NCBI GenBank assembly: GCA_027365485.1
Contig: DAHXNH010000324.1
Span: 1 to 32,802, forward strand
Reading direction: 5' to 3'
DNA: 32,802 nt
From: Clostridiales bacterium
GTDB taxonomy: Bacteria; Bacillota; Sulfobacillia; Sulfobacillales; Sulfobacillaceae
Part shown: piece after piece, positions 5,496 through 25,970 of the stretch
How positions within the stretch are numbered: position 1 is the first letter of the stretch
Layout: every line of letters starts with the position of its first letter
Made by a program: the position numbers and the translations under genes
The notes under the pieces: generated by a model
The model's input: the letters and a program-made list of their open reading frames with translations, nothing else
Databases searched by the model: none
What the model was told of the DNA's origin: nothing

Positions 5496-6512
5496 TTAGA
5501 GTTCAATCAGCGTTTTGACCTGCTGCCGTTGGCCCGCAACCAAGGCCGGAAAGGCTTCAATTAGGTCATCCCAGGGAATTTTCTGGCTGATGTAGGCGTC
5601 CGAAGCGATTTGGCCCTCGCGGACCGCCTGATGCGCGGTGGCGAAATCTTCCCGGGTGGCATTGCGACTGGCGAGCAGAGTGACTTCGCGTTGGTGAAAC
5701 AAGGGATCGGCGATGCACACCTTATCCTGGCTAAGGCCCACATAGACTACACGGCCGCCGTGGGCCACATAGCTCACCGCCTGGCTCATTGACTGCACGT
5801 TGCCGGTGGCGTCAAACACGACCGAGGGCAAATCGCCTTCGGTGAGGGACGCCAGCTGGTCTTCCGGGCGGTCGCCGGCAGGTAGGGCGGCTTCGACGGG
5901 ACACCAGGTTTGAGCGAATCGCAACCGGTCGGCATCACCGTCGATGACTAGAATCTTGGCCCCTCGCTGGTGGGCCAACGCCATGACCCCGAGGCCAATC
6001 GGGCCCGCTCCGATAATTAACGCAACCTCACCGGGGTTCAGTGCAGCGCGGCGGACCGCATGGGCTCCAATGCTCAGCGGCTCTAAGATCGCGGCTTGGT
6101 CGAGCGACAACCCCTCCGCTTTCACTAGGTGGGTCGTTGGCACTGCGAGGGTTTCCTGCATCCCGCCATCGCGATGCACCCCGAAGACCTCCAGATGCAC
6201 GCAACAGTTGGGTTTGCCCTGACGACAGGCCACGCACTGGCCGCAGTGGAGATACGGCACGATGGCGACCACATCGCCGATTTGAAGGCCGAGGCCGTGG
6301 TCTGGGTCGATGGCTTCAATGACCCCTGAGAGTTCATGGCCCAACACCCGAGGATAGGTAAAATACGGTTGGTTGCCTTGAAAGGCATGAAAATCGGTGC
6401 CACATACGCCGATACGGCGAATGCGGATCAAGGCCTGGCCGGGGCCCATCTGGTTAGGATCGCGTTCGAGGCGTCGAAGTTCCCCCGGTTGGCGGCAGAC
6501 GATGGTTTGCAT
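5496..6512 (-). CDS. Zinc-dependent alcohol dehydrogenase, L-galactonate 5-dehydrogenase (LgoD/YjjN)-like
   Basis: A 338-residue medium-chain dehydrogenase. Catalytic zinc ligands are C37 (GVCGTD) and H59-E60 (LGHE), with E144 as a further candidate. The structural zinc site is C90, C93, C96 and C104. The NAD(P) Rossmann motif is GAGPIG (168-173). The text resembles E. coli YjjN (LgoD), which oxidises L-galactonate at C5 to D-tagaturonate; shared stretches include GNQP.F.YPRVLGHE, GVH.DGG and SRNAT.EDFA. L-fuconate is 6-deoxy-L-galactonate, so this enzyme could oxidise fuconate or galactonate after the lactonase. Alternatively it may act on 2-keto-3-deoxy-L-fuconate. The ATG has GAGGAGG eight bases upstream. 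It begins 18 bases after the aldo/keto reductase stop and precedes the lactonase by 32 bases. Family sure; substrate uncertain. Confidence 0.85.
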   Translation of the reverse strand: MQTIVCRQPGELRRLERDPNQMGPGQALIRIRRIGVCGTDFHAFQGNQPYFTYPRVLGHELSGVIEAIDPDHGLGLQIGDVVAIVPYLHCGQCVACRQGKPNCCVHLEVFGVHRDGGMQETLAVPTTHLVKAEGLSLDQAAILEPLSIGAHAVRRAALNPGEVALIIGAGPIGLGVMALAHQRGAKILVIDGDADRLRFAQTWCPVEAALPAGDRPEDQLASLTEGDLPSVVFDATGNVQSMSQAVSYVAHGGRVVYVGLSQDKVCIADPLFHQREVTLLASRNATREDFATAHQAVREGQIASDAYISQKIPWDDLIEAFPALVAGQRQQVKTLIEL

Positions 6513-6530: not shown

Positions 6531-7469
6531 TTACAATGACGCGTACTCGGGGAGTCCACTTGGCCAGCTTTGGCCTTGGATGGGTTGCAATTGGGTAAGC
6601 ACGTCTTGCAACAGCCCCTCTTCAGGGAGTTCCTCCGCCCACCGCACGGTCTGTTCGACCTCGGTGGGATTGCACGCACTGAACAGGGTGGTGGCTAGGG
6701 TGGGTTGGCTCACGGCAAATTGAATGGCCAGTTCCGCCAAGGAGTGCCCCTGGGTCCGGCAATAGGCGGCAATCTGCTGGCAAGTCTGTTGGATGACCGT
6801 GGGGGCGGGATGCCAAGCCGGGGGGCCCTGGTCGGTTAACAATCCCATACCGAAGGGGGACGCGTTGATGACCCCAATCTGGCGCGCTTGCAACGCCGGT
6901 AGCAGATCGAGCAAGGTCCTATCATGGAGGGCATAGTGGCCATAGGATAAGATCAAGTCCACGGGAATCTGCTCGGCCACGATACGGTTAAATACCGTGA
7001 GCGGAAATCCCGAGAGGCCATACCACCGAATGGTGCCTTGACGTTGGAAATCGCGCAAGGTCGGCAGGCTTTCCTCCACCACTTGTCGCCAGGGAACGAA
7101 CTCCACATCGTGCAACAAGAGAATGTCTACGGAATCGAGGCCCAGGCGGACCAGACTCGCTTCTAGGCTCTGCTGAAGATGTTGTGGGGACATGTCGAAG
7201 GCATCGAGCCCATCGCGTCCGGCCTTCGTCGAGATAACGTAGCGATCCCGGGGCACTCCTCGAAGCGCCTTGCCTAACACGGTTTCCGCCCGGGTCAGGC
7301 CATAGTACGGAGAGACATCCAGATAATTAATGCCAGCGTCGAGGGCGGCATGCACCGCGCGAATGCTGTCGGCTTCAGGAGCCTCTCCGTAGACGCCGCC
7401 CAGCGCCGATGCGCCAAAACTGAGCGCGGAGACGTGCAATCCCGTCTGTCCTAACGGTCGATACCGCAT
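6531..7469 (-). CDS. Aldo/keto reductase, probable L-fucose (L-galactose) 1-dehydrogenase
   Basis: A 312-residue aldo/keto reductase with the tetrad D51, Y56, K82 and H120. It resembles plant L-galactose dehydrogenase closely by memory, for example VDILLLHDVEF, LSYGHYALHDRTLLDLLP and GLLTDQGPP.WHPA. Bacterial enzymes of this clade oxidise L-fucose, and also L-galactose and D-arabinose, at C1 to the lactone, usually with NAD(P)+. This matches the flanking mutarotase and lactonase. The start is ATG at 7467-7469, with AGGGAGG six bases before it. The frame stays open to 7709, but that part has no family resemblance and no ribosome site, so the 262 bases up to fucU are treated as untranslated. 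A fossil of a second copy forms the start of the GH95 gene at 19.7 kb. Confidence 0.88.
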   Translation of the reverse strand: MRYRPLGQTGLHVSALSFGASALGGVYGEAPEADSIRAVHAALDAGINYLDVSPYYGLTRAETVLGKALRGVPRDRYVISTKAGRDGLDAFDMSPQHLQQSLEASLVRLGLDSVDILLLHDVEFVPWRQVVEESLPTLRDFQRQGTIRWYGLSGFPLTVFNRIVAEQIPVDLILSYGHYALHDRTLLDLLPALQARQIGVINASPFGMGLLTDQGPPAWHPAPTVIQQTCQQIAAYCRTQGHSLAELAIQFAVSQPTLATTLFSACNPTEVEQTVRWAEELPEEGLLQDVLTQLQPIQGQSWPSGLPEYASL

Positions 7470-7731: not shown

Positions 7732-8160
7732 TCATTCGACTACCCCCTTTTTCAACAGAATATTTCCGTACATCGCAGAGTCGCCGGTGGCTACGATGGC
7801 GAACGCGTTGAGTGACCGTTGATAGAAGATATCCCGGTCAAGGAGATTAATTTGTAAGGGTCCAATGTGATGCTCATCCAAAATGGCCCGATAGTCGTCC
7901 CATCGAGCAGGACGAACCGTATCGGGTGGAGCCAATTGCATCAGCGCCACCGGTTGCTCGACATAGCGATCTAAAGGAAACCAGGGTAATACGGCATCCA
8001 GGAGGGCAACGATGGAGAGCCCGTCCCCTCGGATCAACCGCTTTGCATGGCTGACCGCCGGAAAGTTCGCATCGGCAAACACAATTTCGTCCCCGTGCCC
8101 CATTTCCATCAGGACTTTGATTAATTCCGGAGAAATCAATGGGGAAATCCCACGTAACAT
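7732..8160 (-). CDS. fucU: L-fucose mutarotase, RbsD/FucU family
   Basis: A 142-residue protein matching FucU end to end. It starts with MLRGISPLISPEL, carries MGHGDEI (H22) and FADANFP (D30), and ends with the conserved AMYGN (Y131) and ILLKKG. FucU interconverts the alpha and beta anomers of L-fucose; here it would supply the anomer used by the C1 dehydrogenase after fucosidase action. AGGAG lies nine bases before the ATG. It is the first metabolic gene after lacI (90 bases downstream of the lacI stop) and lies 262 bases before the aldo/keto reductase. A 3' fragment of a second fucU is found at 19761-19925. The protein is cytoplasmic and forms a multimer in known members. Confidence 0.95.
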   Translation of the reverse strand: MLRGISPLISPELIKVLMEMGHGDEIVFADANFPAVSHAKRLIRGDGLSIVALLDAVLPWFPLDRYVEQPVALMQLAPPDTVRPARWDDYRAILDEHHIGPLQINLLDRDIFYQRSLNAFAIVATGDSAMYGNILLKKGVVE

Positions 8161-10703: not shown

Positions 10704-10720
10704 ACGATGTTTTAGATCGT
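10704..10720. promoter_or_regulatory. Weak dyad ACGAT-N7-ATCGT before GH29-2
   Basis: A short inverted repeat about 37 bp upstream of the GH29-2 start codon, in the position expected for an operator. Only five bases per arm match, so it may be chance. Confidence 0.2.
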
Positions 10721-10756
10721 CTGAAACAACAACAAGCACAAGAGAGAGGTGCCAAT

Positions 10757-12466
10757 ATGACATCATCCACAGACAGACTCGATTGGTGGCGGGAAAGCCG
10801 CTTTGGACTGTTTATCCATTGGGGGCTCTATAGCCTGCTGGGTCGAGGCGAGTGGGTCATGTACGATGATAAAATTCCTGTCCAAGAGTACGAAAAACTA
10901 GCACATGAATTCAATCCCGCGGAATTTGACGCCGAGAGTTGGGTCAAACTAGCTAAAAGCGCAGGCATGAAGTATATTGTCATCACCGCAAAGCATCATG
11001 ACGGCTTTTCCATGTTTCGAACGAAGGTGAGTCGTTTTAATATTGTCGATGCCACCCCGTATGGTCGAGACGTTATGTCCGAGTTGGCCCAGGCCTGCCA
11101 ACGTGAAGGCCTCACGCTTGGTTTCTATTACTCGCATGTGCGGGAATGGCGTCATCCTCATGCTCAGAGCCTCGAAGTCAAAGGTCCGACCCTATTGGGA
11201 AACTACGGAAACTCCTGGGATTACCGAGAAGAATGGCACAAAAACCTTCAAACGTACCTCGACGAGTTCGACAAGCCGCAACTCAAAGAACTGTTGACGC
11301 AATATGGGCCGATCGGCATCATTTGGTTTGACACCCCTTCCCTAATCCGACCCGACCAGGCGCAAGAATTGGTCGACCTCGTTCGGGAACTGCAGCCGAA
11401 CTGCCTGGTAAACAGCCGGGTGGCGGATGACCCGAGCGTGACCTATGACTACCTCAGCCTAGGCGACTGTGAAATCCCCGGGGTGGATGCGGGCGTGGAT
11501 TGGGAAACGCCGATGACTATTTGTGAAGCGTGGGGGTATAACGCCCAACCCGATAACCAGTATCGATCGCCGGAGGAGCTTATCCATCAACTGGTGGATA
11601 TCGTAAGTATGGGTGGAAATTACTTATTGAACGTAGGACCCACGCCTGACGGCGTGATCCCTCAAGAAGCCCAGGATCGGTTAGCCTCCATGGGCCAGTG
11701 GATACGCGTTAATGGTGAGGCCATCTATGGGACGGAGGGCTCGCCGTTTAAACAGCGTCCGGATTGGGGACGGGTAACGTACAAAGACCATCGGTTATAC
11801 CTGCATGTCTACCGATGGAAGAGCGTGGTCGCGCTTCTCGGGTTAGCAAGCAAGGCTCGACGCTGTTACTTTCTCGCGGACCCGAGTACTGGCGTCGCGT
11901 ACAAGCAGTCTCACGACGATTCGCTGGGAATCCACCGACTGGAACTGGAACTTCCCGCTCGACCCCTGGATCCGTTCTGTACGGTGATCGTCGTCGAACT
12001 CGACGGCCCCCCTCAGGTCAATAACACGATCGTACAAGATGACGCGGGCATTCGACTGTCGGCCATCCAGGCGGCTATCCATCGGGAAGCTGAAGGCAGC
12101 ACCCTGCAAGTCTCCCGAGCGGGATCAACGAATGACTGGTTTGACTCCGCGGACTGGCTAAGCTGGGATTATGTGGTCACCGAGCCCGGAGAGTATGATG
12201 TGGATCTTGTCGTGGAATCGAGCCGGTTCGGTCGGATGTGGGACTATGGTCACGAAGTTGAAGTCATAGTCGGTTCCCAGAAGCTGACCGGTCACTTCGC
12301 CAAAAACGACGCCCCCGCGTCCGACGTACCACTAACCCTTCGAATGGGACGGCTTAGGTTTGACACGCCGTCCCAATATCGGGCCGTTCTGAAAGCTACG
12401 GAGATCACCCGCAGAAACTTGGTGGGGCTGCGATTTATGTCACTGGAACTGGTGCGATCCGAGTAG
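10757..12466 (+). CDS. GH29 alpha-L-fucosidase (2) with C-terminal beta-sandwich
   Basis: Predicted alpha-L-fucosidase of 569 residues. The catalytic domain (about 8-350) has FGLFIHWG (H21, W22), KHHDGF (79-84) and the likely nucleophile D192 in IIWFDTP. A middle beta domain follows. The last 140 residues (from about 425) have the DWFDSADWLSWDYVV and PGEYDVDLVV pattern of carbohydrate-binding-like domains found at the end of many GH29 enzymes. There is no signal peptide, so it acts inside the cell. The ATG follows AGAGAGG by six bases. It is the only plus-strand glycosidase here and appears monocistronic, with a hairpin 55 bases after the stop. The same N-terminal motif (LLGRGEWVMY) appears in the decayed GH29 at 26.6 kb, so the two are related. 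Linkage preference cannot be read from sequence. Confidence 0.93.
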   Translation: MTSSTDRLDWWRESRFGLFIHWGLYSLLGRGEWVMYDDKIPVQEYEKLAHEFNPAEFDAESWVKLAKSAGMKYIVITAKHHDGFSMFRTKVSRFNIVDATPYGRDVMSELAQACQREGLTLGFYYSHVREWRHPHAQSLEVKGPTLLGNYGNSWDYREEWHKNLQTYLDEFDKPQLKELLTQYGPIGIIWFDTPSLIRPDQAQELVDLVRELQPNCLVNSRVADDPSVTYDYLSLGDCEIPGVDAGVDWETPMTICEAWGYNAQPDNQYRSPEELIHQLVDIVSMGGNYLLNVGPTPDGVIPQEAQDRLASMGQWIRVNGEAIYGTEGSPFKQRPDWGRVTYKDHRLYLHVYRWKSVVALLGLASKARRCYFLADPSTGVAYKQSHDDSLGIHRLELELPARPLDPFCTVIVVELDGPPQVNNTIVQDDAGIRLSAIQAAIHREAEGSTLQVSRAGSTNDWFDSADWLSWDYVVTEPGEYDVDLVVESSRFGRMWDYGHEVEVIVGSQKLTGHFAKNDAPASDVPLTLRMGRLRFDTPSQYRAVLKATEITRRNLVGLRFMSLELVRSE

Positions 12467-12912
12467 CGGCGCTGTCTCTGAACGGAGGAGCGCGTGTCCA
12501 TGTACTCGTTAATGCCGCACAGTGGGTTTGGACGGATCCCCTCGTCCAAACCCACACCATGAAACGCCAGGAGGTCCCGATTTCCCGCTGCAGATAGAAG
12601 ACCTGTTGCGAGTTAACTCCGAGGCGCCTGGTTGTATTCCCTGAACCTGACGAATATTACCGGCCACGGAAAATGGGCCCTCAACGTCGAAGAACCGACA
12701 ATGCCTACCTTCGAGGAGGGACCATTCCCCGGTCCCTTCATCCATCGATGAGTGGATTTTCTTGGTCGACAACTGGACCGCCGAAAATCTCAGTCCAAGA
12801 CCTGGAGCATCCCCAGTTTTGAATCACCAATGATCGGCATATTCTCTGAAAGGATTGGGGCTCCTTCTGACGAAAGGCTATCGATCATTTCGCACGACCG
12901 AGGAGGGTGCTC
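12467..12912. other. Segment without a supported gene
   Basis: About 450 bases between GH29-2 and the transposase remnant. It holds the hairpin at 12522-12555. A plus-strand stretch near 12630-12750 reads like a piece of a secreted-domain or glycosidase protein (ITGHGKWALNVEEPT, FEEGPFPGPFIHR), but it is interrupted and not recognised. Confidence 0.45.
12522..12555 (+). terminator. Perfect 13-bp hairpin after GH29-2
   Basis: GTGGGTTTGGACG (12522-12534) and CGTCCAAACCCAC (12543-12555) are exact complements across an 8-base loop, 55 bases after the GH29-2 stop. It is a very stable stem but has no following T-run, as with the hairpin at 2876-2906. It is likely a transcript end or stabiliser. 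Confidence 0.55.
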
Positions 12913-13930
12913 ATGATCCAGTGAGAGTCTCTCGTCGAGTATTTTGATACGCACGGCAAGTTACGACGATCCCAGCGGCAGACGACGCTGCCTTGACCTG
13001 GGCGTTAATTCAGGACACCGTTTTAGGCATTAGGCATTGGTGCCATCGGCAGCGCCGGGTGGATATGGAGGTCGCGTGTCGCGACCTGATTGCGACAGTC
13101 ATTGGGAATGCTCGGGAAATCCTGCTGACCTTGGATCGGACCGACCCCAAAACCCAAGAGGGGCAGTGTCAAACGGCGAGGATGAATGTGGGAGCCCATT
13201 GCCTGGCAAACGGCGCGAAAAACGGAGTGAAAAGGCCGCATGCGGGACGATGAAAAATCCCTCTGTACGGATGTGGCCCCGCTGATCCCGGCGGATTGTC
13301 ACGTGATCTTGCTGGCTGACCGCGACTTGGGCACGGTGCGGTTTTTCCGCGTACTCGGTGGCCCCTCGGCTGGGGTTCGGTGATTCGAGGACAGGGAAAT
13401 CTCTTAGTGCGTTCGAAAAACGCTTAGCGTCCGATCTGCCTGTTAGCCACGGGACGCCCACTGCAAGGGGATGATCACGGGGACAATGACAAAAAGGACG
13501 TTCGTGGACCATACCAGGTCGGTTAGTCATCATCTAGGCGGACAAAGTCCATACCGATCCCGGGTTTCGTCGCGTGTCGCCCGGCCTAGCCGGGTGCTCT
13601 TGGGCTCAGGTGGTCGCGCTGTACGGAACGGGCTTCCCCTGTGAAGAATCGGACAACGATCAAAGGAATCAGCCCAAGGACGGATTCTAAATAAATGCGG
13701 TGCCATGAGGCACCGCCGATCGCTGGGAGCGCGTGGGGTTCGTCTTCGCCTGAGCCGATGATTGGCTCAATGTCCGCGGATAGGCGGTGGACCACCGGGG
13801 AGGGGACCGGGACCGGCGCGCCAACACGCCCGAAACCCGCTCCCATGCGCGATGACGCTTAGGCTCTTGGGGCCTCGCCCACCAAGATTTAGACTGGCCC
13901 ACTCTGGTCCGTAATCAAACAGCGTTTCAA
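12913..13930 (+). pseudogene. Decayed DDE transposase
   Basis: A full-length but broken transposase can be followed through shifting frames. It starts at ATG 12913 (AGGAGG at 12901; TGA at the fourth codon), with ESLVEYFDTHGKLRRSQRQTT. Next is TWALIQDTVLG, then LLTLDRTDPKTQEGQCQT near 13128-13172, which holds the first catalytic Asp. Then comes CHVILLADRDLGTVRFF near 13298-13350, with the second Asp. Finally ALYGTGFPCEESDNDQRNQPKDGF near 13618-13690 holds the likely third acidic residue. Many stops and frameshifts make it inactive. The pattern is IS4-like; the exact family and ends were not determined. It separates GH29-2 from the GH2 gene. Confidence 0.75.
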
Positions 13931-13932
13931 AC

Positions 13933-13966
13933 GAGCATCCCGCCGCTCAGCGAGGCGGGGATGCTC
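13933..13966. other. Strong hairpin at the end of the transposase remnant
   Basis: GAGCATCCC at 13933-13941 pairs with GGGATGCTC ending at 13966, and inner GCC/GGC pairs extend the stem with a bulged G. It lies at the distal end of the decayed transposase and could be a terminator without a T-run, or an element end structure. Confidence 0.4.
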
Positions 13967-14466
13967 ACCGAATCCGGCGCGTACGACTCATAGCCGTTCA
14001 CGCCTGGATCAAACGCTCGCCAGGCCAGGTGGCCGTGAGCTTGCCTGTCATCGAGTCGCACCCCGGTAGAACCCATTTCCAACAGGTCGTGCCCGCTAAA
14101 CCGAACAGTAGTATTGTTCCTTGCCCCGATCGGGGCAAGATTCTACCAGGAAAAGCGCAGCCATATAAGGACTTTAGCCACAAACACAGTCAAAACCGGG
14201 GACCATTCAGGGCTGGAACGGCCATCCTCCGTTCAGGACTTTCACCTTACAGCACAGTCCGATGGCAGCGCCGCCGGACTGTCCGGGGCGGCGTCTGGAC
14301 CGTAGCCGAAAACGAGCGATACCACACCAGGGGGTAACCTCCGGCTTCATGGTGAATAAATGCCGTCACAATCTCGCGCTGATACGAAGCAAGCCCGATT
14401 CCGAACATGCAAGAACGACCATCGACCAGGAGCCGGGACGAAGCGATCCAATGTCGACACGAGTCC
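13967..14466. other. Segment without a supported gene
   Basis: About 500 bases downstream of the GH2 stop. It contains a 20-bp perfect palindrome at 14120-14139. Short open frames on both strands are not recognised. No T-run terminator for the GH95-GH2 transcript was seen. Confidence 0.5.
14120..14139. repeat. Perfect 20-bp palindrome CTTGCCCC-GATC-GGGGCAAG
   Basis: Ten bases on each side are exact complements with no spacer. It could be a protein-binding dyad, a terminator stem or part of a lost mobile element. It sits about 330 bp past the GH2 stop. Confidence 0.5.
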
Positions 14467-17208
14467 CTAAATCGAATTGGCCCCCAAACTCCGGAGATCC
14501 GTTCCTTCGGTCTTCAGGTGTTCGCGTACCGCATCCAGCGGCCATTCTGTTACAGGATTGAAGTCGTTGCCGTGCATATAGGCCAGAATACTGGCAAGCA
14601 ACTGACGCGCTGCGGGACGGCGGTCCATGTTTGACATGAAATCCAATCCACTAACCAGCAATCGTCCTTTCCCCACGGAACACTCAAATAAAAGACCCAA
14701 AGGGTGATTTCGGAGCGGATGGTCGATAGCCTGGATGATCGGAGCGAGGCGCGATGGAGAGGTGCTGATATCGACAACCTTGGCACCGAGAAACACATCC
14801 CACCATTGCCAATCCGAATGGGAATCCGTGGGGAATTTCGTCAAGGCGGGGTGCCGAGGGTCACACCATAACCCCATCGTTTTGGGTTGATTCGGAAACA
14901 ACTGAGTGTTCCAGAAAGGCGTCGTAAACATGGTCGCCTCGCTGCGACGGGCGTGAGTAGCAATAAAGAGAACTTTGCCTCCGTTCCGTAACCGCTGTTC
15001 GACCTCTTCATCCCACACCTCGGTCATCCAAATATCGGTCGGTATCACGGTTCCCATCGTTTGGGGAAACACCCAAATATCCCATGCGTTCGAAATCGCA
15101 GTCCGTCCAATCGATAATTCCAGTTTCAGCCTCTCCGCGCTTTCAAAGTCATGGAACGGGAATTCGATGGTTCCCACATTCGTGACGGTCCCTTGTTCCA
15201 CGGTTGAACCTTCGATATGGCCACGGATTCGAGTCCTTCCCGCCGAATCCTTTAAGGTCCATACGACGGTCAGGTTTTCGAGACGGGAACGACTGTAATT
15301 GGACACCGCGACGATGCCTGTGAACCCATCCTGGGTTTCGTACACACGTTTTGGCATCCGTAGCAAAAGCACGATCGAATCACAGAAGCGGCGAAATTGG
15401 TCGGGCGCAATCAATCCTTTAGAATCCCAAAATGCATCCAACCACCCCACAAGTGACGTCCCTTGTCCAGGATAGTCATGGATATCCAACAACTGAAACC
15501 CACCGTAATTCGGGGTTCGCAGGGATCGTTCTATCTCTTCGCGGTACAGGGCTAATGCGAGTGCACCTGAGGCTCGCACAAAATCGTCCGCCTGCTGGAT
15601 CATCCCACTATCCTCAAGAGACTTCCTAAACCACTCTAAATTACGCGGTGCTAAGACGCCCATATATTTTGGGATTTCGCGATAATTGGGATAGACCTCC
15701 CATTGCCCGACTTCATGAGACACGGTCGGAATGTCAATGGCGTCAAGGGTATACCCATAGTCGCTCATGGTCTCCGGTACTTGGTGGTTGAAGATCAATT
15801 CGCATCGTCTCAGATGCCGAATTCCATCCACTCTCGCTTCGTGGGCAACATAAAAATCCTCCCCGGCTCTGGGGCGAATGCCGACCTGCGGCTCCGCGGC
15901 ATTGTTGGCCACCGTGGTGAAAAGACGCCGCCCGTCGCGCTGTTGGCCTTCCCGCACCAAAGCGTCAAGGACCTCGTAGTCACCTTTCAACTCATTGCCC
16001 ATACCCATCATGCAAAATGACGGGTGGTTTCCGTACGCATCCAAGATGCGCTGAAGTTCTTTTCCTAGGAAGGAATCCCGAGCGACGTCTTGACCAATGG
16101 GGGTCGCTCCGATCCCGAAAAACGGCAGTTCCGCCTGCAAGATGACCCCGGCTTCGTCCGCGGCCTCGAATGCCGCTTCCGGTGGACACCAGGAGTGAAA
16201 CCGGAAATGATTCAATCCGTACGATTTCGCGGTGGAATAAATATGAAGCCAATGGGCCTTGTCCATAGCGGGGTACCCCGTGAGTGGGAAGTTTCCGGCA
16301 TCGTGCGTACCTCGCAGAAAAATATAATAATCGTTCAAACGAAAACGCGTTCCGTCCGCTCGAAATTCCCGAAGACCGAACCGGTCATGCCGCTGGCTTC
16401 GAAACGCCAAAGAACCCGTGTTTGCAGACAAATGCGTGGTCAGTTGATAAAGATTTGGGTCAAATTCGTCCCAGAGTTTTGCTGAGTCGCCCAACTCCAG
16501 TTCCCCACGGACCATCTGAGAGGGCTGGTCCGATTCCCATACGAGGGATACCGTCTGGATCGCATCGCATTCCGGCAATGCTGCTTCGAATTTCAAGGTT
16601 CCCGTTGCACGCTCGCCCGTATGGTTATCAATGCGTGCCGCCAGAACCACTTTTCTATTCACCACGTCCGGATAAATCTGTACGCAGTGGACGTAAACGG
16701 CATCGGCAACCCGGATCTCGACTTTTCCAATGATCCCATTCCATATCGTCTGCACTTCCTCGGACCAGGCGTGACTCCATGCGCCCAGATCCACTTGAGC
16801 CGTGTTATCCACCCGAATACTGATCGCATGCGTTCCAGGGGTCAGCCAGTGCGTCAGGTCGAAGACATGCGACGTGGATAAACTGTTCTCGCTCCCCACC
16901 GGATGTTCGTCGACCCAGACTTGAGTTTCCCACAGGCACCGTTCCAAAAATAAGCAGAGTCGTTTCCCCGCCCAACAAGATGGGATAGTGACAAGCTTTC
17001 GGTACCATGCCACCCCTTGATAGCGACGTTTCCGGTTTAATCTCAAGAGATCGATTTCTACCGTGGGTTCGCCATACCCCCCTTCGTCCGTGGAACCTGG
17101 TAGACCAATGGAGTCTGGAAGCACGCGCGTACACCATTGCTGCTCGACGCCAATGTTCTGCGGGTCCAATGCAAATCCCCACGTACCCGCCAAATTTATG
17201 GTGTCCAT
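14467..17208 (-). CDS. GH2-family glycoside hydrolase
   Basis: A large cytoplasmic enzyme of 913 residues. An N-terminal GH2 sugar-binding jelly roll (NLAGTWGFALDP, with VDEHPVG near 99-105) is followed by an immunoglobulin-like domain and a TIM barrel. The barrel carries the probable acid/base E406 in MGMGNEL and the probable nucleophile E499 in VSHEVGQWE. About 400 C-terminal residues include further beta domains and a GGKVLFIATHARR segment. GH2 members act as beta-galactosidases, beta-glucuronidases, beta-mannosidases or arabinosidases; which one applies is not clear. With fucosidases and arabinosidases nearby, a beta-galactosidase that works once fucose is removed is plausible. The ATG has GAGGAGGG four bases upstream. 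It starts 48 bases after the GH95 stop, so the two are co-transcribed. Confidence 0.88.
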   Translation of the reverse strand: MDTINLAGTWGFALDPQNIGVEQQWCTRVLPDSIGLPGSTDEGGYGEPTVEIDLLRLNRKRRYQGVAWYRKLVTIPSCWAGKRLCLFLERCLWETQVWVDEHPVGSENSLSTSHVFDLTHWLTPGTHAISIRVDNTAQVDLGAWSHAWSEEVQTIWNGIIGKVEIRVADAVYVHCVQIYPDVVNRKVVLAARIDNHTGERATGTLKFEAALPECDAIQTVSLVWESDQPSQMVRGELELGDSAKLWDEFDPNLYQLTTHLSANTGSLAFRSQRHDRFGLREFRADGTRFRLNDYYIFLRGTHDAGNFPLTGYPAMDKAHWLHIYSTAKSYGLNHFRFHSWCPPEAAFEAADEAGVILQAELPFFGIGATPIGQDVARDSFLGKELQRILDAYGNHPSFCMMGMGNELKGDYEVLDALVREGQQRDGRRLFTTVANNAAEPQVGIRPRAGEDFYVAHEARVDGIRHLRRCELIFNHQVPETMSDYGYTLDAIDIPTVSHEVGQWEVYPNYREIPKYMGVLAPRNLEWFRKSLEDSGMIQQADDFVRASGALALALYREEIERSLRTPNYGGFQLLDIHDYPGQGTSLVGWLDAFWDSKGLIAPDQFRRFCDSIVLLLRMPKRVYETQDGFTGIVAVSNYSRSRLENLTVVWTLKDSAGRTRIRGHIEGSTVEQGTVTNVGTIEFPFHDFESAERLKLELSIGRTAISNAWDIWVFPQTMGTVIPTDIWMTEVWDEEVEQRLRNGGKVLFIATHARRSEATMFTTPFWNTQLFPNQPKTMGLWCDPRHPALTKFPTDSHSDWQWWDVFLGAKVVDISTSPSRLAPIIQAIDHPLRNHPLGLLFECSVGKGRLLVSGLDFMSNMDRRPAARQLLASILAYMHGNDFNPVTEWPLDAVREHLKTEGTDLRSLGANSI

Positions 17209-17256
17209 ATGACCCTCCTCAATGGTTGAACGAAGTTGCGATTGGGCAATTGACCA

Positions 17257-19737
17257 TCATACTCGCCGTATGGTATAAATCCCTCCTGGTTGAACAGGGA
17301 AGGATATTATGTTCTTACCTAGAACTTCAAACGGGGCGATCTTTCCGTTCGTCTCGACCGTAACCGAAACTCCTGGACGTACATCGCATCGGCCTGTGCG
17401 ATTTGAGGCAATGATAGCCTCCCGCAGTTGGCCGCCCTCCCACGACAACGTAACATGGAAGCCACCACGAGCGCGGAGTCCACTCGCTCGACCTTCTGGC
17501 CATGCTTGGGGTAAAGCCGGCAGCAATTCGAGCGTGCCCGTGTGTGATTGGAGGAGCATCTCCGCGACGCCGGCGGTAAAACCAAAATTACCATCAATTT
17601 GGAATGGGGGGTGGGCATCAAACAGGTTTGCGTAGACCCCTCCACGGAGGTAGTCGACGGAATTGTCTCTCACGAGTTGGAGCAGATTCGAGACCAATTC
17701 CAGGGCATGATCTCCGTCCTTTAGCCGCGCCCATAAACATATCTTCCACGCCAAACTCCAACCGGTACCCCCATCGCCTCGAATCTCGAGCGACTTCTGC
17801 GCAGCCTTGAACAGGTCCGCTGCAGTATCATTCGTAAGTTGTCGTCCTGGGTAAACCCCAAACAGATGAGAGACATGGCGATGGTGAACATCTTCATCGT
17901 CCCAATCCTTCGCCCACTCCTGGAGTCGGCCATTCCGCCCCACCTGAAAAGGCAAGAGTTTGTCTCGTGTATCGAGAAGCTGACGCCGGAAAGCCGCATC
18001 CTCATCCAACGCTGCAGCGGCTTCAATGCAGTTCGTAAACAAATCCCAAATGAGCGCTAGATCCATCGTAGCGGCCATGCTGACAGCGGCCGTTTGTCCC
18101 GACTCGGTCACGAACTTGTGCTCAGGAGACGTCGATGGCGCCGTGACGAAATGTCCCCGCCCATCCTCCACGAGCCAACCCAGGTAAAACAAAGCCGCCT
18201 CGCGCATGATCGGATAGGCCTGTTTGCGAAGGAACTCCCGGTCCAGACCGAACGCATAATGCTCCCAGAGATGCTGACACAACCATGCAGCACCCATGGG
18301 CCAAGAGATCCACGCCGGATCGCCGTGGCCATAGTCTCCTGCCGGCGCGGACTGACGCCATAGGTCTCCATTATGATGAGCCGTCCAGCCCTTTAGGCCG
18401 TAGTTCACTTCCGCAGTTTTCCGTCCATTCTGAGAGAGTTCCTCAATGTAGGTCAAAAACGGCTCATGGCACTCCGCGAGATTACAGGTCTCTACGGGCC
18501 AATAGTTCATCTCGGCATTGATGTTCAACGTCCAGTTACTACTCCAAGGCGGACGCACTTCATGATTCCAAATCCCTTGCAGATTCGCGGGTTGCGTACC
18601 GGGCCTGGAACTTGCAATCATCAGATATCGCCCGTAGTCGAAGAGCAGTTCCACCAGACGTGGGTCCTTCGCACCGAATTTCATGATGCGCTGATCGGTG
18701 GGCATATTCTCCGGCGCTATCGAAGGACCCAGTTCGAAATGAACCCGATTAAAGAGGCTCTGATGGTCCTGAATATGGGCTTGCCGCAGATCCTTGTACA
18801 ATTTGCGCTCGGCCAACGCTATCTGTTGAGCAACGACTTGGGCAGGATCCTTGCCTTCCCGTCCGGGCGACTTGTCGAACCCATTAAAACTGGTGGCAGC
18901 AGCAAAAATAAGCACCGCCGTCGTTGCCTCCGTCACGTGTAGGCCATCGTGGTCAACCGAGATCGCCCCGCTCTCCACCATCGCCGTTAAGCGGCCGTGA
19001 AAGCGCATCGCTTGGGTAGTATTGGGATCCCCATAAATCACCGGCACATCATGAACATCATAATAGCTGGGGTCGACATGCTCAGGGCATACCCCAGTGA
19101 TCGTAAGACCGCCGTCCTTTGAGGCCGTGTGATAACGCAGTTGACTGTCTAGTTGGACCGTGAAGTCCAGTAGACCTGGATGACTTACACTCAGATGCAC
19201 AACCAGCACGTCGTCAGGGTAAGAGGCAAAGACTTCCCGCGTATACATTGCTTCACCAATCTGGTATTGAATCGTTGCCACACCCAGGCCAAGATCGAGA
19301 CTTCTCTGATAGTGACGCGAAACGCCGCCATGCTGGAACTTGATATAGAGGTTCCCTAGGGGGAGGTAGGATTCGGTATACGGCCCCATCATCCTTTTCG
19401 CCAGATGATCGGCTTCCGTATACCGTTCTTCGAAAATCCGTCGTCGAATATTGGGCAATTCCTCTTTTGCCCTGGGGTTATTCCCATCTTTAGGATATCC
19501 GGACCACAGCGTATCTTCGTTCAATTGAATCCGTTCCGTTTCGACGCCGCCAAACACCATCGCCCCCAGCCGTCCGTTTCCTAAGGGAAGTGCTTCGGTC
19601 CACAGGTTCGCTGGTCGGCGGTATTGGAGTTTCCTTTCAACCCCGTCACTGTCGTGAAACACGGCACCCAGCGACGACGCGTCGAAACTCCGTGCGGAAC
19701 CTTTCGTGGCGGTCTTGCCCAGCGTACGATACTCCAT
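17257..19737 (-). CDS. GH95 alpha-L-fucosidase with a dehydrogenase-derived N-terminus
   Basis: Predicted inverting alpha-L-fucosidase (GH95, often acting on Fuc-alpha-1,2-Gal), 826 residues. The GH95 part begins near residue 37 with YRRPANLWTEALPLGNG. Likely catalytic residues are N405 and N407 in LNINAEMNYW, acid E539 in STSPEHKF, and D715 in QIDGNFGF. Residues 1-36 are not GH95: MEYRTLGK, SARSF and ASSLGAVF follow the start of the aldo/keto reductase at 7469, with changed glycines (SFG to SFD). The ATG follows an AGGAGAGATC ribosome site that matches the expected start of that lost gene. A longer frame reaches 19932, but it runs over a fucU fragment in another frame and is rejected. No signal peptide. 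GH2 follows by 48 bases. Activity is probable because the GH95 core is intact. Confidence 0.9.
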   Translation of the reverse strand: MEYRTLGKTATKGSARSFDASSLGAVFHDSDGVERKLQYRRPANLWTEALPLGNGRLGAMVFGGVETERIQLNEDTLWSGYPKDGNNPRAKEELPNIRRRIFEERYTEADHLAKRMMGPYTESYLPLGNLYIKFQHGGVSRHYQRSLDLGLGVATIQYQIGEAMYTREVFASYPDDVLVVHLSVSHPGLLDFTVQLDSQLRYHTASKDGGLTITGVCPEHVDPSYYDVHDVPVIYGDPNTTQAMRFHGRLTAMVESGAISVDHDGLHVTEATTAVLIFAAATSFNGFDKSPGREGKDPAQVVAQQIALAERKLYKDLRQAHIQDHQSLFNRVHFELGPSIAPENMPTDQRIMKFGAKDPRLVELLFDYGRYLMIASSRPGTQPANLQGIWNHEVRPPWSSNWTLNINAEMNYWPVETCNLAECHEPFLTYIEELSQNGRKTAEVNYGLKGWTAHHNGDLWRQSAPAGDYGHGDPAWISWPMGAAWLCQHLWEHYAFGLDREFLRKQAYPIMREAALFYLGWLVEDGRGHFVTAPSTSPEHKFVTESGQTAAVSMAATMDLALIWDLFTNCIEAAAALDEDAAFRRQLLDTRDKLLPFQVGRNGRLQEWAKDWDDEDVHHRHVSHLFGVYPGRQLTNDTAADLFKAAQKSLEIRGDGGTGWSLAWKICLWARLKDGDHALELVSNLLQLVRDNSVDYLRGGVYANLFDAHPPFQIDGNFGFTAGVAEMLLQSHTGTLELLPALPQAWPEGRASGLRARGGFHVTLSWEGGQLREAIIASNRTGRCDVRPGVSVTVETNGKIAPFEVLGKNIISFPVQPGGIYTIRRV

Positions 19738-19760
19738 GATCTCTCCTCGATTCTCAGAAT

Positions 19761-19925
19761 TTATGCCATCGGTCCAATGAGGCGCTCGACCAGACTGCGA
19801 GCCTGGTCGAACTTCGACCCGGCTAAGGCTGCCGAGGGGTCGATAGGCCCTCTCTTTACTAAAGTGTTGCCGTACATCGCGGATTCCCCCGTGGCCACGC
19901 CAGACAAGGTCCGACCGGTCCTTTG
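19761..19925 (-). pseudogene. fucU: 3' fragment of a second fucU
   Basis: A 54-codon frame has ATGESAMYGNTLVKRGP, matching the end of the intact FucU (ATGDSAMYGNILLKKG), plus a 27-residue extra tail. It is cut off upstream by TAG at 19926-19928, and no fucU 5' part is found there. Its TAA at 19761-19763 is 23 bases before the start of the GH95 chimera. The order fucU then aldo/keto reductase repeats that of the intact operon, which supports a duplicated pair that lost most of its sequence. Confidence 0.8.
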
Positions 19926-19928
19926 CTA

Positions 19929-20472
19929 ACACGGGTGGCGGCCAACATACTCACTCCCGCCGCGGTTCCAGGTGCTGTACAGGCAACATGGTTTAGCAAA
20001 GGTTCCACATCTCAGACGCCTCGGTATCTTGCGGCTCGAGGATCCTGCTGAAATGGTTCTGCACCCAGAATATGGTTCGATAGCCGAAGCAATTATGGTC
20101 CCTGTTCCGCAATTCCTTCCGACGGTCTTCGTAGACGCGGCCACTACACGGTATGCTTCATATTTGCGAACCATCATCGCACATCTCCCATGTTGATTAA
20201 CACCGAGCCGATTCTCGCCAGCAAGCTTCGTCGGACAAATTCAGGGCTTATCGAGGTCATCATCCCCGTCAAGTATAGAGCGCACAGCGTGCTCCGAATC
20301 TCGTCAAAATACCGGCCCTATTTTTTCAGGCCCTCTGCCCTAATCTGGGTCCACTCCTGAGCGGCCCCATTGTTTACCCTAATGCAGGGGGCCGACCTCA
20401 GGGTGTCGATATCGTCCCAACAGCGTCACAAATGTAACGCTGAGTATTTACCGTAAATGGCTGCACATATGG
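19929..20472. other. Gene-free stretch between GH43 and the fucU fragment
   Basis: About 540 bases. On the minus strand near 19960-20130, one frame reads GYRTIFWVQNHF, then TEASEMWNLC, a stop, and MLPVQHLEP. This faintly recalls the C-terminus of sugar mutarotases of the RhaM type (PF05336), but it is broken and short. No terminator with a T-run was seen after GH43. Confidence 0.4.
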
Positions 20473-21978
20473 TCACAATGCTTTCCGATATCGAAACCAA
20501 TCGAAATACGCTGCAACTCCCGTCGTGGAATAGCTGTAGAGTCCAAAGAACACTCCTGTAAAACCACCGGCCACTTCAGTCGATACCCAATGCGTTTCCG
20601 CTTCGCCGAGGATGTGCCAATGCTGATCCGAAGCCTGATAGGAAAACACATACCTTTCCGGGGTTGCTTGAATTCTCAGGTCGACGATGGGCGCTTCGAT
20701 AGGCGCCGAATGTCTATCGATGGTCATGCTTCCGACCTGGCGGCGAAAGGTAATGACCCGACTCCCGTTAATCTCCGTCAACCCAATGAAATAGTGGTGC
20801 CTTTCGTTCATATAGACTGCTAGACCTGCTTCATCTCCCTCCTGAGGATGAAACTCGAGTTTGGTAGAGATCTCGCATTCAAAGTGCCGCTGCCGACAAC
20901 CGATAAATGCGGGGGTTCCCGAATCCGTCAATTTCACATTCGATCCACGTAAAGAGAGCCAGCCCTTCCGCTCCTCCAAAGATAAATCGACATCGTGCGA
21001 GTTGCGGATAAAATTCCATTTCGCCCCGAGTTTCGTCTCGTCAAAATGATCGACCTCAGCCTCCTCTTCCCAAGCGGCCACTGGTAAGGTTTCGGTTTCC
21101 ATCTCCAACTCTACGGTCCCGTGATTCCCAATCACGGGCCAACCATCATCGGTCCAGGCGACAGGAGCCAAGAATGTCTCCCTTCCCAGGTGATGGCGGT
21201 AGGGAAACCTTACTGGTCGAATCCCCAAGAAAACGGCCCACCATCGCCCGTCTTGTGCTTGAACCAAATCGGCATGCCCGGTTGCGTGAATCGGATGGTT
21301 CAGACTTCGGTGCGACAGGATTGGATTGAATGGACAAGATTCAAACGGGCCATACGGAGTTTCACCTCGTGCGATGGTCTCCATATGGCCGTACTCCGTT
21401 CCGCCTTCTGCACACATCAAATAATAATATCCGTTGATTTTATACACATGCGGCCCCTCGGGGAATGCTCCTCCGGTACCTGTCCAAATCAATCGGGTGT
21501 CGCTCAGTTTTTGACCTGTCTCGATATCGATCGCGCACTGATAAATCCCCTCACTCTGCATACCTCCGGTACTCGTAAAATAAACTTTTCCGTCATCATC
21601 AAAGAACAATGAGGGGTCAATGCCAGGCTGGTCCACATAGATGGGATCTGACCATACACCGGCCGGATCGTGGGTCCAGACGTAGAAATGGCCTCCTTCA
21701 TCAACATTCGTCGTGACCATATAAAACCGCCCCGCATGATAACGAAGCGTTGGGGCATAAATTCCACCAGAAGACACCGATGATTTGTTAAGTTGCAGCT
21801 GGCTTTCGCGCGTTAGACAATATCCAATTTGCCGCCAATGCACCAAATCGTTGCTGTGCCAAACCGGCACGCCCGGAAAATAACCAAATGAACTATTGAC
21901 GAGATAGTAATCATCACCAACCCTACATACACTCGGGTCTGGATAAAAACCTGGAATGACAGGATTTTGATATCTCAT
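20473..21978 (-). CDS. GH43 beta-xylosidase / alpha-L-arabinofuranosidase
   Basis: A 501-residue GH43 enzyme. The five-bladed propeller carries the general base D14 (NPVIPGFYPDPS), the pKa-tuning D121 (GIDPSLFFDDDG) and the acid E174 (AFPEGPHVYK). Residues from about 310 form the C-terminal beta-sandwich (GH43_C2 type) seen in two-domain beta-xylosidases. Such enzymes remove xylose or L-arabinose from non-reducing ends; the two activities are not separable from sequence. There is no signal peptide. The start is ATG at 21976-21978, with GAGGAG about 11 bases upstream, a slightly long spacing. The frame extends to 22290, but that part overlaps the end of GH127 and has no GH43 homology. It follows GH127 by 94 bases, probably in one transcript. 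Confidence 0.92.
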   Translation of the reverse strand: MRYQNPVIPGFYPDPSVCRVGDDYYLVNSSFGYFPGVPVWHSNDLVHWRQIGYCLTRESQLQLNKSSVSSGGIYAPTLRYHAGRFYMVTTNVDEGGHFYVWTHDPAGVWSDPIYVDQPGIDPSLFFDDDGKVYFTSTGGMQSEGIYQCAIDIETGQKLSDTRLIWTGTGGAFPEGPHVYKINGYYYLMCAEGGTEYGHMETIARGETPYGPFESCPFNPILSHRSLNHPIHATGHADLVQAQDGRWWAVFLGIRPVRFPYRHHLGRETFLAPVAWTDDGWPVIGNHGTVELEMETETLPVAAWEEEAEVDHFDETKLGAKWNFIRNSHDVDLSLEERKGWLSLRGSNVKLTDSGTPAFIGCRQRHFECEISTKLEFHPQEGDEAGLAVYMNERHHYFIGLTEINGSRVITFRRQVGSMTIDRHSAPIEAPIVDLRIQATPERYVFSYQASDQHWHILGEAETHWVSTEVAGGFTGVFFGLYSYSTTGVAAYFDWFRYRKAL

Positions 21979-22072
21979 GGTCGCCAGGTCTCCTCTTGCA
22001 CCCGGACTGCCAGGTCGGTTCCAAATGGCTTGAAGCGGCTTTCCCTCTCCCAAGCTTTCCTTTCGTCTGCCG

Positions 22073-23980
22073 TCATCCTTGCACCTCGCTCCCATTTTTT
22101 GGCTTTCGAATCGGAAAATAGACCGTGTATGTTTCATCGGTGACATCCAGCAGCGGGATAAAGCGGATGTTTCTTTCCTGGTTGATGGTTTTGTATGAGC
22201 CATCGCGCCAAAAACTGTGGTGCCGTTCATTGTGGGGAGTGAGGATGGTATCCGCACGCTCCGGTTCGCCCTCCAACAACCGCTCTTCATCCACCAGTCC
22301 GGCTAACACCACGGGCCCGTCCATAAAGGCCACCATCCCCGGCTGATCCGGCAATGGCACGGCCGTGAGCACTTTTGGAAATTCAATGGTCACGGTGTCG
22401 TGATCCCAGACCTTGCGGATCCGAATATGAGACGGGGATTCGTCTGCGCTCCAATGTGGCTCCCCGTTAATCCTTATCACCGGGTGTCCGCTCACCCACC
22501 AAGGAACCCGGAACGCTACCTCAAAGTCGGTAGGGTGGTCGCATTGGACCTGCAATTCGCAAACACTCTGTTTCGGCCGCTCGGGTGGGATCTGCGGGCG
22601 GTGCAAACGTTGAATCGATTCCACTCCTTCGCCATCGAACGTCGGCACCGCCGTCGACCCTGTCTGCGAAGGCTGCCGGAGCACCACCTCAACGGTCGTC
22701 TCGCCATAACGCCAAACAACTTGAGATGGAATATACTGGCTTACTACTAAACCGTCCGGGGTTTCGTGAAAAATGGGGTGGTCGTAGGATGCCTGCGCCT
22801 GAACCAGGGTGCCATGACAGCACCAAAAATGATTCGTCGCACTCCCCCAAGACTTCTTGCTACCAGGGCCAAGTTCCAGAAAATAGGAAACCATGCCGGT
22901 CTGTTTGTTTTGTTGCGCCAATACTCCATTCACGAGATTCCGCTCCCAAAAATCGGCGTACTTGGACTCTCCCGTCCAGCGGTACAGCACCTCCGCCAGA
23001 CGCATCATATTGTAAACCACGCAGTGTTCCTGGGCGGATCCAAGTCTTGCCGCGAGCTTTTGTGGCGGTGTCCACACCTCCCCGCAAGACACTCCGCCGG
23101 TGCAGTAAGTGCCGCGAACTTCCACCGCCGCTTCCCAGAAGGCGAGAGTCACGTCTCGCCATCGCCTGTCGCCCGTCACTTCGAAGGCTCTCGCCGCTCC
23201 CAGGATTTCAGGAATCTGTGTATTCGCGTGTTTGTTGGTGAGGACGTCCTCTCCGCGCAGAAGCGCATCGAACAATCTCGGCCGATCATACCGATAGATC
23301 AACGTCAGGTATTTCTCATCGCCCGTTTCACCGTACAAATTCGCCCAGACCTCTAGCATCCCTCCGGTTTCATAGTCAAGAATGCGATCCATCTGCTCAC
23401 GACTAAAAGCGTCGGTCCAACGATAGAACCAGTCGGCGAAGCGGGTCGAAATAGCTAACGCCTCCGGTAAATCCATAAGGCGGTAGACATCATACAATCC
23501 CATAAAAATCTTGTGGATGGTGTACTGGGGAGCCCAAACTGCCTTCCCGGCTGCGATGCGATGCAGGAACGTTTCGGGAAAGGCCGCGATCCATTCTCCA
23601 CCATTAGCTGCTTGACAGCGGGCGAGTTCTCTGACAATAAAGGCGGTCTTCGCCCGAAGCTGCTCATCCCCGGTTTCGGCATACGCATTGGCAGCCGCCG
23701 ATAACCAGTGGCCGAGAAAGTGCCCCCGTAGCTCGCACGTCGGTGCTTCCCAACCCCAATGCCATGTGGTTGGATGATCCTGAGAAATGTCCGGATCAAC
23801 CGACGTGCCCGCACTACCGCTATAACTCCACAGTCCGGCTTGCAGATAGAATGTTCTCAGTAGGTTGAGCGAACTCAGACTCATCAAGTATTTGACGTTT
23901 AGCTCAAACCGCGTCCTAATCGGACTGCTGAGCAATTTTGCCGTGCCCGGCTGCAATGGTTGAAGCACCAGGTTGGTCAT
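22073..23980 (-). CDS. GH127 (DUF1680) beta-L-arabinofuranosidase
   Basis: A 635-residue (alpha/alpha)6-barrel enzyme of the DUF1680/GH127 family, releasing beta-L-arabinofuranose by a cysteine-nucleophile mechanism with a zinc-bound thiolate. Residues equivalent to those of HypBA1 are present: acid E301 (GGVSCGEVW), zinc ligands E318 and C320 (QEHCVVYN), and the cysteine pair C387-C388 (FWCCHGT), one of which is the nucleophile. Natural substrates are the beta-arabinosides of hydroxyproline-rich plant cell-wall proteins and rhamnogalacturonan II. No signal peptide, so its substrate must be imported. The ATG at 23978-23980 is preceded by AAGGAG at an unusually long 15 bases, so the exact start is less sure. 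It lies 228 bases after the GH29-3 stop and 94 bases before GH43. Confidence 0.92.
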   Translation of the reverse strand: MTNLVLQPLQPGTAKLLSSPIRTRFELNVKYLMSLSSLNLLRTFYLQAGLWSYSGSAGTSVDPDISQDHPTTWHWGWEAPTCELRGHFLGHWLSAAANAYAETGDEQLRAKTAFIVRELARCQAANGGEWIAAFPETFLHRIAAGKAVWAPQYTIHKIFMGLYDVYRLMDLPEALAISTRFADWFYRWTDAFSREQMDRILDYETGGMLEVWANLYGETGDEKYLTLIYRYDRPRLFDALLRGEDVLTNKHANTQIPEILGAARAFEVTGDRRWRDVTLAFWEAAVEVRGTYCTGGVSCGEVWTPPQKLAARLGSAQEHCVVYNMMRLAEVLYRWTGESKYADFWERNLVNGVLAQQNKQTGMVSYFLELGPGSKKSWGSATNHFWCCHGTLVQAQASYDHPIFHETPDGLVVSQYIPSQVVWRYGETTVEVVLRQPSQTGSTAVPTFDGEGVESIQRLHRPQIPPERPKQSVCELQVQCDHPTDFEVAFRVPWWVSGHPVIRINGEPHWSADESPSHIRIRKVWDHDTVTIEFPKVLTAVPLPDQPGMVAFMDGPVVLAGLVDEERLLEGEPERADTILTPHNERHHSFWRDGSYKTINQERNIRFIPLLDVTDETYTVYFPIRKPKNGSEVQG

Positions 23981-24208
23981 ATCCTTATCTATCGACTCCT
24001 TCTAAGAAAATGGCTGGTGCCAAGACCGCCGCTTTACCAGGCGGAAGTCCTGACGGACTCAGCACGAAGCTCATAAACGGGTGACGCCGCGTACCGCTAT
24101 GCGAGACTGACAGCGAGTAAATCCGTCCCCTCAGCCTGCATCTTCAGAAAGCGACAACCGCTCCGGGCAGACGAATCCTTGGTCATCGCAGTCACTATGC
24201 CGCGCAGG

Positions 24209-25681
24209 TTACGACCGAAACCCCCGCGGTGTAACGAGCTCTACCTCTTCGCTTAAGCCGGTTCCTGAATACACCCCAACCGAAGATAGGGTCGGACACC
24301 ACCGAGATTCCAGAATGCGGACCCGAAGCCTTTGACAAGTTATGGGTCTCAGCCGCACAATCCGCTTGTATCCGACCACCGTGCCCGTATGCACGGAGAT
24401 CCATTGATCCCCAATCCGGCATTCTAGACTAAACCGCTCGATGCGTTGTCCAGAGGCGATATGTTCTTGAAGGACCACATGATCGAAAGTGGTTTCGCCC
24501 CCAAAGTCAAGCTCGACGTCCGCCGATTCAGTACCAAACGGTGGACACCAGAACGAATCTCTATCGCCATCTATTACGCTGTCTGCGTCGTGGTCACGAT
24601 CCAACGTAGCCGACGCCGTTGCGACAGCCTCCCTCGCCAAATCCCGGGCAAAAGTCCGTCTGAGCACGTCTCCAAGGTTCACCAATACCGTGGCGTCCTG
24701 CGACGCAATCAGCCCACTTGGGTCAGGCGGCACATTCAGTAAAAAGGTGGCATTCCCCCCCACCGCTTCATAGTAAATGGTCAGCAGTTCGTCAACCGAC
24801 CGGACTTGGCCATCCTCGTTCGCATGGTAAAACCACCCCGGCCGAATGGAGGTATTCACCTCAGCTGGATACCAGACCAGATCCTCTACGCCTTGGATGG
24901 CTACCCGACTCCCCAGGTCTTGATCTCCGGTATTCACGCGCCGGGAGAACAAGCCATCGTCGACCGTTTGGGACTGCTCCTGTATCCGCTCTTGAGAGCG
25001 CAACTGTCCCGGAACGACACTCCATTCCGACACGCGACAATGGCCCGCCTCGTTTCCGCACCAGCGTACATCCGGTCCGCATACCGAAATCACGGCGTTC
25101 GGCTGCAGTTCTCGTATGATCGCAAAATAGCCGTCCCAGTCGTAGACTTGCCGCTTGCCGTTCGGGCCTTCGCCGCAAGCCCCGTCAAACCAGACGCAGA
25201 AAATGTCGCCGTAGTTGGTCAACAGCTCGCGCAACTGGGCCTTGAAATAGTCGTTGTATTCCTCGGTGCCATACCTGGTATCGTGCCGATCCCAAGGAGA
25301 AAGGTACACCCCGAACTTCAGCCCGGCTTTGTTACAAGCCTGCGATACCTCTCTGACGACGTCACCGTGTCCATCCCGCCAAGGGCTTTGGCGGACAGAA
25401 TGGTTGGTATGTTGGCTCGGCCAGAGGCAGAATCCATCGTGGTGTTTCGCGGTCAGAATCAATCCCCGCATCCCTGCTGACCGAAACACGTCCACCCACT
25501 GGTCGGCATCTAACCGTTCGGGGTTAAAGAGGGTAGGGCTTTCCTCTCCGGTCCCCCATTCCCGACCGGTGAAGGTGTTGATCGTAAAATGGACAAACGC
25601 ATAAAACTCTAGGGCCTGCCACTGCAGTTGGCGTGCCGAAGGCACCACGTTCGCGGCTCGCATGATTGCGGAATTAGTCAT
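24209..25681 (-). CDS. GH29 alpha-L-fucosidase (3) with C-terminal F5/8-type (CBM32-like) domain
   Basis: A 490-residue enzyme. The catalytic barrel has AFVHFTINTFTGREWG, KHHDGF (79-84) and the likely nucleophile D166 in CVWFDGA. The second conserved region, VSEWSV (E219), is a candidate acid/base. From about residue 345 a discoidin (F5/8 type C) sandwich follows, with SATLDRDHDADSVIDGD, SFWCPP and the ending RLRVRILESR. This combination is typical of GH29 subfamily B, which often needs branched alpha-1,3/4-fucosyl substrates; that is family knowledge. No signal peptide. The start is ATG at 25679-25681, with AGGGAGG six bases upstream, 13 codons inside the longest frame. It heads the GH29-GH127-GH43 run and lies 289 bases downstream of the decayed fourth GH29. 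Confidence 0.92.
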   Translation of the reverse strand: MTNSAIMRAANVVPSARQLQWQALEFYAFVHFTINTFTGREWGTGEESPTLFNPERLDADQWVDVFRSAGMRGLILTAKHHDGFCLWPSQHTNHSVRQSPWRDGHGDVVREVSQACNKAGLKFGVYLSPWDRHDTRYGTEEYNDYFKAQLRELLTNYGDIFCVWFDGACGEGPNGKRQVYDWDGYFAIIRELQPNAVISVCGPDVRWCGNEAGHCRVSEWSVVPGQLRSQERIQEQSQTVDDGLFSRRVNTGDQDLGSRVAIQGVEDLVWYPAEVNTSIRPGWFYHANEDGQVRSVDELLTIYYEAVGGNATFLLNVPPDPSGLIASQDATVLVNLGDVLRRTFARDLAREAVATASATLDRDHDADSVIDGDRDSFWCPPFGTESADVELDFGGETTFDHVVLQEHIASGQRIERFSLECRIGDQWISVHTGTVVGYKRIVRLRPITCQRLRVRILESRWCPTLSSVGVYSGTGLSEEVELVTPRGFRS

Positions 25682-25970
25682 GTGTATCCTCCCTGGGTCT
25701 GCTCTATTCTGGTCTCGCAATCTGGCCCAACACTCGGGTCAACGTTCTTACTCGGTTCGCAACCGCGCGGGTTTCAGGGTATTCGACCCGGCTTTAGGCA
25801 CTGATTCCTTAGCATTCTACCTAAGGATAGGCTTCAAGTCGGCATCAGCATCAGAGAGTCTTAATATTCTTCCATAGCTTCCCATCTTGCCCACCGCCTC
25901 GTGCATGATCACCCCTCGTTTTCTGCTCATTTCACGGGTGATCGAATGATGTTACAAACCTCATCGTCAT

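Follow-up and report, generated by a model that had tools for sequence, protein, structure and literature searches.

A GH95 alpha-L-fucosidase gene that begins with the decayed start of an aldo/keto reductase gene: probable capture of a neighbor's translation start by operon deletion

The Chimeric GH95 Open Reading Frame

The window analyzed here, the whole stretch of 32,802 nucleotides from a Sulfobacillaceae genome, contains on its (−) strand a predicted open reading frame for a chimeric GH95 alpha-L-fucosidase (17257..19737, 826 codons, ATG start). The Pfam matches of its product (PF14498, E = 1.9e-71; PF22124, E = 3e-183; PF21307, E = 2e-26) comprise the N-terminal, catalytic, and C-terminal GH95 domains, which places it in family 95 by domain content, and no Pfam domain was found before residue 37. 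It shares 61% identity with a protein of Paenibacillus rigui. Alignment to 31 homologues assigned residues 36-826 (17260..19632, (−) strand) to the GH95 part, in which the invariant family columns, such as L50, G53, N54, G55, and G58, were retained throughout. In the same 32-sequence alignment, N405, E539, and D715 were invariant and N407 was at least 90% conserved, and all four residues are present in the query. Going by the general features of the family, they would correspond to the paired Asn, the acid Glu, and the base Asp of the GH95 active site known from AfcA of Bifidobacterium.

The BH0842-type GH95 protein (PDB 2RDY) matched residues 35-825 of the query over its full length, sharing its domains and conserved residues, but it aligned from its own residue 3 to query residue 35 and lacks the leader described below. 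The onset of GH95 homology was found at residues 35-37 (PF14498 from 37, 2RDY from 35, and the methionine of close homologues at 35), in line with a preliminary description of this DNA that had put it near residue 37. The closest GH95 proteins begin with M-KLQYDKPA (loci L005, L007, L008, and L119) or M-KIQF (L181), and their start codon corresponds to query residue 35. Codon 35 of the query, AGG (Arg; 19633..19635, (−) strand), therefore stands at the old GH95 start codon and is the probable fusion joint, which can be placed at codon 34/35 with an uncertainty of a few codons. The GH95 ATG may have been cut by the deletion proposed below or have mutated afterwards.

Origin of the 34-Residue Leader

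The preliminary description of the open reading frame, from its start through residue 36, was confirmed, and the first 34 codons (19636..19737, (−) strand) were traced by tblastn and DNA matches to the start of a fucose-dehydrogenase-type aldo/keto reductase (AKR) gene. The leader, MEYRTLGKTATKGSARSFDASSLGAVFHDSDGVE, aligned without gaps to AKR N-termini, always from residue 1, at about 45-65% identity and with a lowest E-value of 1.5e-7; 20/34 residues were identical to N-termini such as MKYRKLGKTGLEVSALSFGASSLGSVFRETDEAE. In a pool of 1.58 Mb of fetched loci, tblastn with the leader gave 48 matches with E < 0.001 besides the query (1.5e-7 to 1.4e-4), all of them AKR start regions matched from residue 1. 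Because this pool is rich in AKR loci, some of them fetched twice, the count of 48 is not meaningful in itself, whereas the gap in E-value is: the reversed leader peptide reached a best E of 0.77 in the same pool. At the DNA level, the start region matched the intact AKR gene of the window at 54/81 bases (67%, E = 2e-6). The AKR motif LGKTGLxVSxLSFGASSLG was recognizable over all 34 residues, and similarity extended up to E34, a position occupied by E in 40 of 41 AKRs. The AKR part thus stops at residue 34 and not at residue 36, as had been proposed, although its AKR origin stands.

The leader has lost the invariant AKR residues L11, V13, L16, and G19, and also the nearly invariant G10, so that it is a homologous but not a functional AKR segment. 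The constraint that once acted on it is therefore gone, as the preliminary description had concluded from the loss of conserved glycines. Nothing else of the enzyme remains, the complete AKR barrel with its catalytic residues being absent, and no remains of the AKR body or of an alcohol dehydrogenase (ADH) gene were detected above noise beside GH95, either upstream or just downstream. The GH95 part, with its retained columns, has stayed intact while the leader decayed. A frameshift patch within the leader was also considered and is unneeded, since point changes are enough to explain an alignment that has no gaps. Chloroflexota were rejected as a source of the AKR, with one distant match among 301 genomes.

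The contig belongs to a draft genome of 440 contigs, in which two genes could have been joined by assembly. However, the AKR part lacks invariant residues, which it should have kept if two live genes had been joined. Moreover, the window AKR, whose sequence differs from that of the leader, is the only close one in the genome. As the E-value gap speaks against a chance resemblance, it is extremely unlikely that the leader arose by chance or by misassembly. It was absent from about 100 other GH95 N-termini (those read from 80 genome-collection loci, 19 phylum-search loci, and eight Paenibacillaceae operons); its presence on unrelated GH95 proteins, which had been named beforehand as evidence against a fusion, was thus looked for and not found. 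A literature search on AKR-GH95 fusions returned nothing relevant.

A Decayed fucU Gene Upstream of GH95

Frameshift-tolerant alignment revealed a decayed fucU gene in front of the chimera (20040-19839, (−) strand), which covers approximately FucU residues 76-142 and is interrupted by two frameshifts and two stops. Its alignment score was 94, against 42 for the best of 15 shuffles, and 39/53 bases matched at the DNA level. It contains no RbsD/FucU reading frame of about 140 codons, and its first half was not recognizable above noise. A weak candidate for the fucU start, LTGMMTSISPEFVR (20231..20272, (−) strand), lies at a distance that fits a full-length gene, but it scored 31 against a shuffle maximum of 32, which is noise level, and its collinear position is all that speaks for it. 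The relic is a decayed copy that was probably once full-length, and more than an end piece.

The end of a second fucU had been placed 23 bases upstream of the fucosidase. A fucU relic is indeed found in front, but the TAA at that distance from the GH95 ATG terminates a run-on frame, with no recognizable FucU end there, and recognizable homology stops at 19839, about 100 bases upstream of this ATG. Comparison of plasmid records with the upstream region and the run-on end of the fucU frame gave matches to the GH95 core and weak matches only.

Comparison with the Intact Operon of the Window

The window also carries an intact fucose operon in the order LacI, FucU, AKR, ADH, amidohydrolase, and GH29. 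Its fucU (7732..8160; Pfam RbsD_FucU, E = 1e-37), AKR (6531..7469; Aldo_ket_red, E = 6e-49), and zinc ADH genes (5496..6512; ADH_N and ADH_zinc_N) all lie on the (−) strand, and the ADH gene has no counterpart before GH95. The preliminary description had read the chimera as the outcome of a duplicated fucU-AKR pair and a deletion. In such a local duplication, the pair of the intact operon (8160-6531) would have been copied in front of a GH95 gene already in place, with the AKR start becoming fused to it through a deletion or an imperfect insertion. The genome is rich in mobile-element remnants, and fucU adjoining AKR was seen in this genus only, in the order of the intact operon, both of which favor such a copy. 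However, at five sites (K8, S22, F27, D31, and E34) the leader carries the Paenibacillaceae consensus residue where the window AKR departs from it, and the opposite holds at one site (A15). A recent origin as a copy of the local pair is therefore improbable. In addition, AKR-ADH-GH95 is already a standing gene order, which makes copying unneeded. As originally stated, the local duplication is thus not supported by the informative sites or by the order common in Paenibacillaceae. An old duplication, with the window AKR diverging later, is unlikely but keeps some weight because 34 residues are few and because the fucU-AKR adjacency is limited to this genus.

Gene Order in Paenibacillaceae and the Proposed Deletion

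The AKR subfamily was present in 169 of 297 Paenibacillaceae genomes, and ADH directly followed AKR in all but one of the Paenibacillaceae loci read. In eleven of the best 30 Paenibacillaceae AKR loci, counted within the short flanks available per locus, AKR and ADH were followed immediately by GH95 on one strand, and longer stretches of eight such loci confirmed it. These loci (L180, L181, L145, L146, and others) share the AKR subfamily, the order, and the strand of the query locus, and L180 and L181 also encode GH95 proteins of its subfamily (54-56% identity). Unlike the query locus, they have complete AKR and ADH genes and a GH95 gene with a start codon of its own, and no fucU occurs in the flanks read. 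In a tree built by a quick method, the GH95 protein of the window was placed beside ten mostly Paenibacillaceae proteins including those of L180 and L181, and both also fell within the smallest well-supported group containing it (13 rows). Relatives that keep fucU, a full dehydrogenase, and GH95 side by side had been suggested as a check; the AKR-ADH-GH95 part of this order was found in Paenibacillaceae, and no relative was found with the intact order fucU-AKR-ADH-GH95.

In the Paenibacillaceae AKR-ADH-GH95 loci, about 1.9 kb separate AKR codon 35 from the GH95 start. We propose that the ancestral locus was a fucose operon ordered fucU, AKR, ADH, GH95. One deletion of about 1.9 kb would have begun within or beside AKR codon 35 and reached as far as the start codon of GH95, leaving AKR codons 1-34 fused in frame to codon 2 of GH95. 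The start codon of GH95 would have disappeared in this event or become AGG by a later mutation. Since then, translation of the fucosidase would have begun at the AKR ATG, served by the AKR Shine-Dalgarno site, and added a leader of 34 residues. The leader and the stranded fucU would then have decayed, the GH95 part remaining intact. Since AKR-ADH-GH95 is common in Paenibacillaceae and the informative sites divide five to one, the deletion more probably removed the AKR body and the whole ADH gene within an existing operon. A shorter deletion is also possible, as in Bacillus sp. SA1-12 an AKR gene lies directly before a more distant GH95 gene, without ADH between them. We consider it likely that a single operon deletion made the chimera; the in-frame AKR-GH95 fusion of the preliminary description is retained, and we infer that one event, of the extent given above, produced it.

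Translation Start of the Fucosidase

A Shine-Dalgarno-like GAGGAG (19743..19748, (−) strand) lies 5 bases before the ATG at 19737, with a duplex energy of −8.7 kcal/mol, which puts it in the top 4% of the region's positions by strength. The AKR's own ATG is the only start that combines a good Shine-Dalgarno site with the whole GH95 domain. Given this combination, the weakness of most other in-frame starts, and the conserved residues that would be lost by starting at residues 60-61, the fucosidase is most likely translated from the AKR ribosome site and ATG. The earlier proposal that the enzyme uses the translation start of a pathway neighbor is upheld to this extent, the AKR site being the best candidate.

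Alternatively, the leader might be untranslated: GH95 would start further inside its frame, and the AKR start would persist only as a 5′ relic left open by chance. The in-frame ATG and GTG at residues 60-61 have fair Shine-Dalgarno energies (−8.4 and −8.8), and a leader this short could well stay open during decay anyway: in simulations of point decay at 0.3 to 0.05 changes per site, 39-81% of runs left it without a stop. However, a start at residue 60 or 61 would drop conserved GH95 residues between 37 and 58, the GTG at residue 26 is poorly served by its weak ribosome site, and the native GH95 start is now AGG, which makes an untranslated leader quite improbable.

Disabling changes numbered 4 in the 67 codons of the fucU relic versus 0 in the 34 codons of the leader. 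Selection for the open frame of the leader is only hinted at by this difference, and the open frame is weak evidence for it because simulated decay often leaves the leader free of stops. It is doubtful that the captured start itself was selected, the takeover of the AKR ribosome site matching fucosidase synthesis to that of a core pathway enzyme, with the leader frame kept by selection while the rest of AKR and fucU decayed. No promoter was found between GH43 and GH95, where, as anywhere in the region, the scan gave no more than chance.

Surroundings of the Locus and the Sister Genome

Several other features were observed in the window. A decayed extra GH29 fucosidase gene (25950-26750, (−) strand) includes an open reading frame at 26049-26294 that matches Alpha_L_fucos (E = 5e-9), and the frames upstream of it, which are interrupted by stops, are similar to the beginning of the intact GH29 gene at 10757. 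Like the fucU relic, it indicates that the fucose cluster is losing genes. A mobile-element remnant at 12780-14230 has 15 further pieces in the genome at 72-87% identity and several in the sister genome, where one match encodes a protein weakly resembling a DDE transposase. The gap between LacI and GH29 holds a dispersed repeat (9511-10090), for which the sister genome gave about 20 matches (71-82%), and also a short tandem run of CCTTG-type units. The end of a group II intron was detected near the window edge (32258-32394; Rfam group-II-D1D4-7, 45 bits). A 607-residue protein encoded at 27283-29106, near two ABC permease genes, gave no Pfam match and may be sugar-binding by its position.

The genome of a sister species (G001) encodes FucU and AKR at 98-99% identity, on a contig that ends beside fucU. 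It was considered as a pre-deletion state and rejected: comparison with positions 8200-27200 of the window revealed, repeats aside, no glycosidase cluster and no GH95, so that no pre-deletion copy was seen.

Discussion

Read from the DNA, residues 1-34 of this fucosidase are of AKR origin and have lost AKR residues, GH95 follows intact from residue 36, and a fucU relic precedes the gene. These features point to a genuine relic of a deletion within an operon, through which the fucosidase probably took over the translation start of a neighbor.

Deletional gene fusions are the classical operon fusions of bacteria, in which the loss of intervening DNA brings the body of a downstream gene in frame behind the translation start of another. 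The present case shares this arrangement, but it is natural, its leader is old enough to have decayed, and it lies inside a single catabolic pathway. The event is thus of a known kind, and its value here is the clarity of a natural example. The locus offers a readable snapshot of natural chimera formation: both parents can be recognized, the joint is located to a precision of a few codons, and it is visible that the start codon was lost and that the passenger part decayed. It also allows bench tests of frame retention and start use. The case further warns that the N-terminal residues of annotated enzymes may be relics of deleted neighbors.
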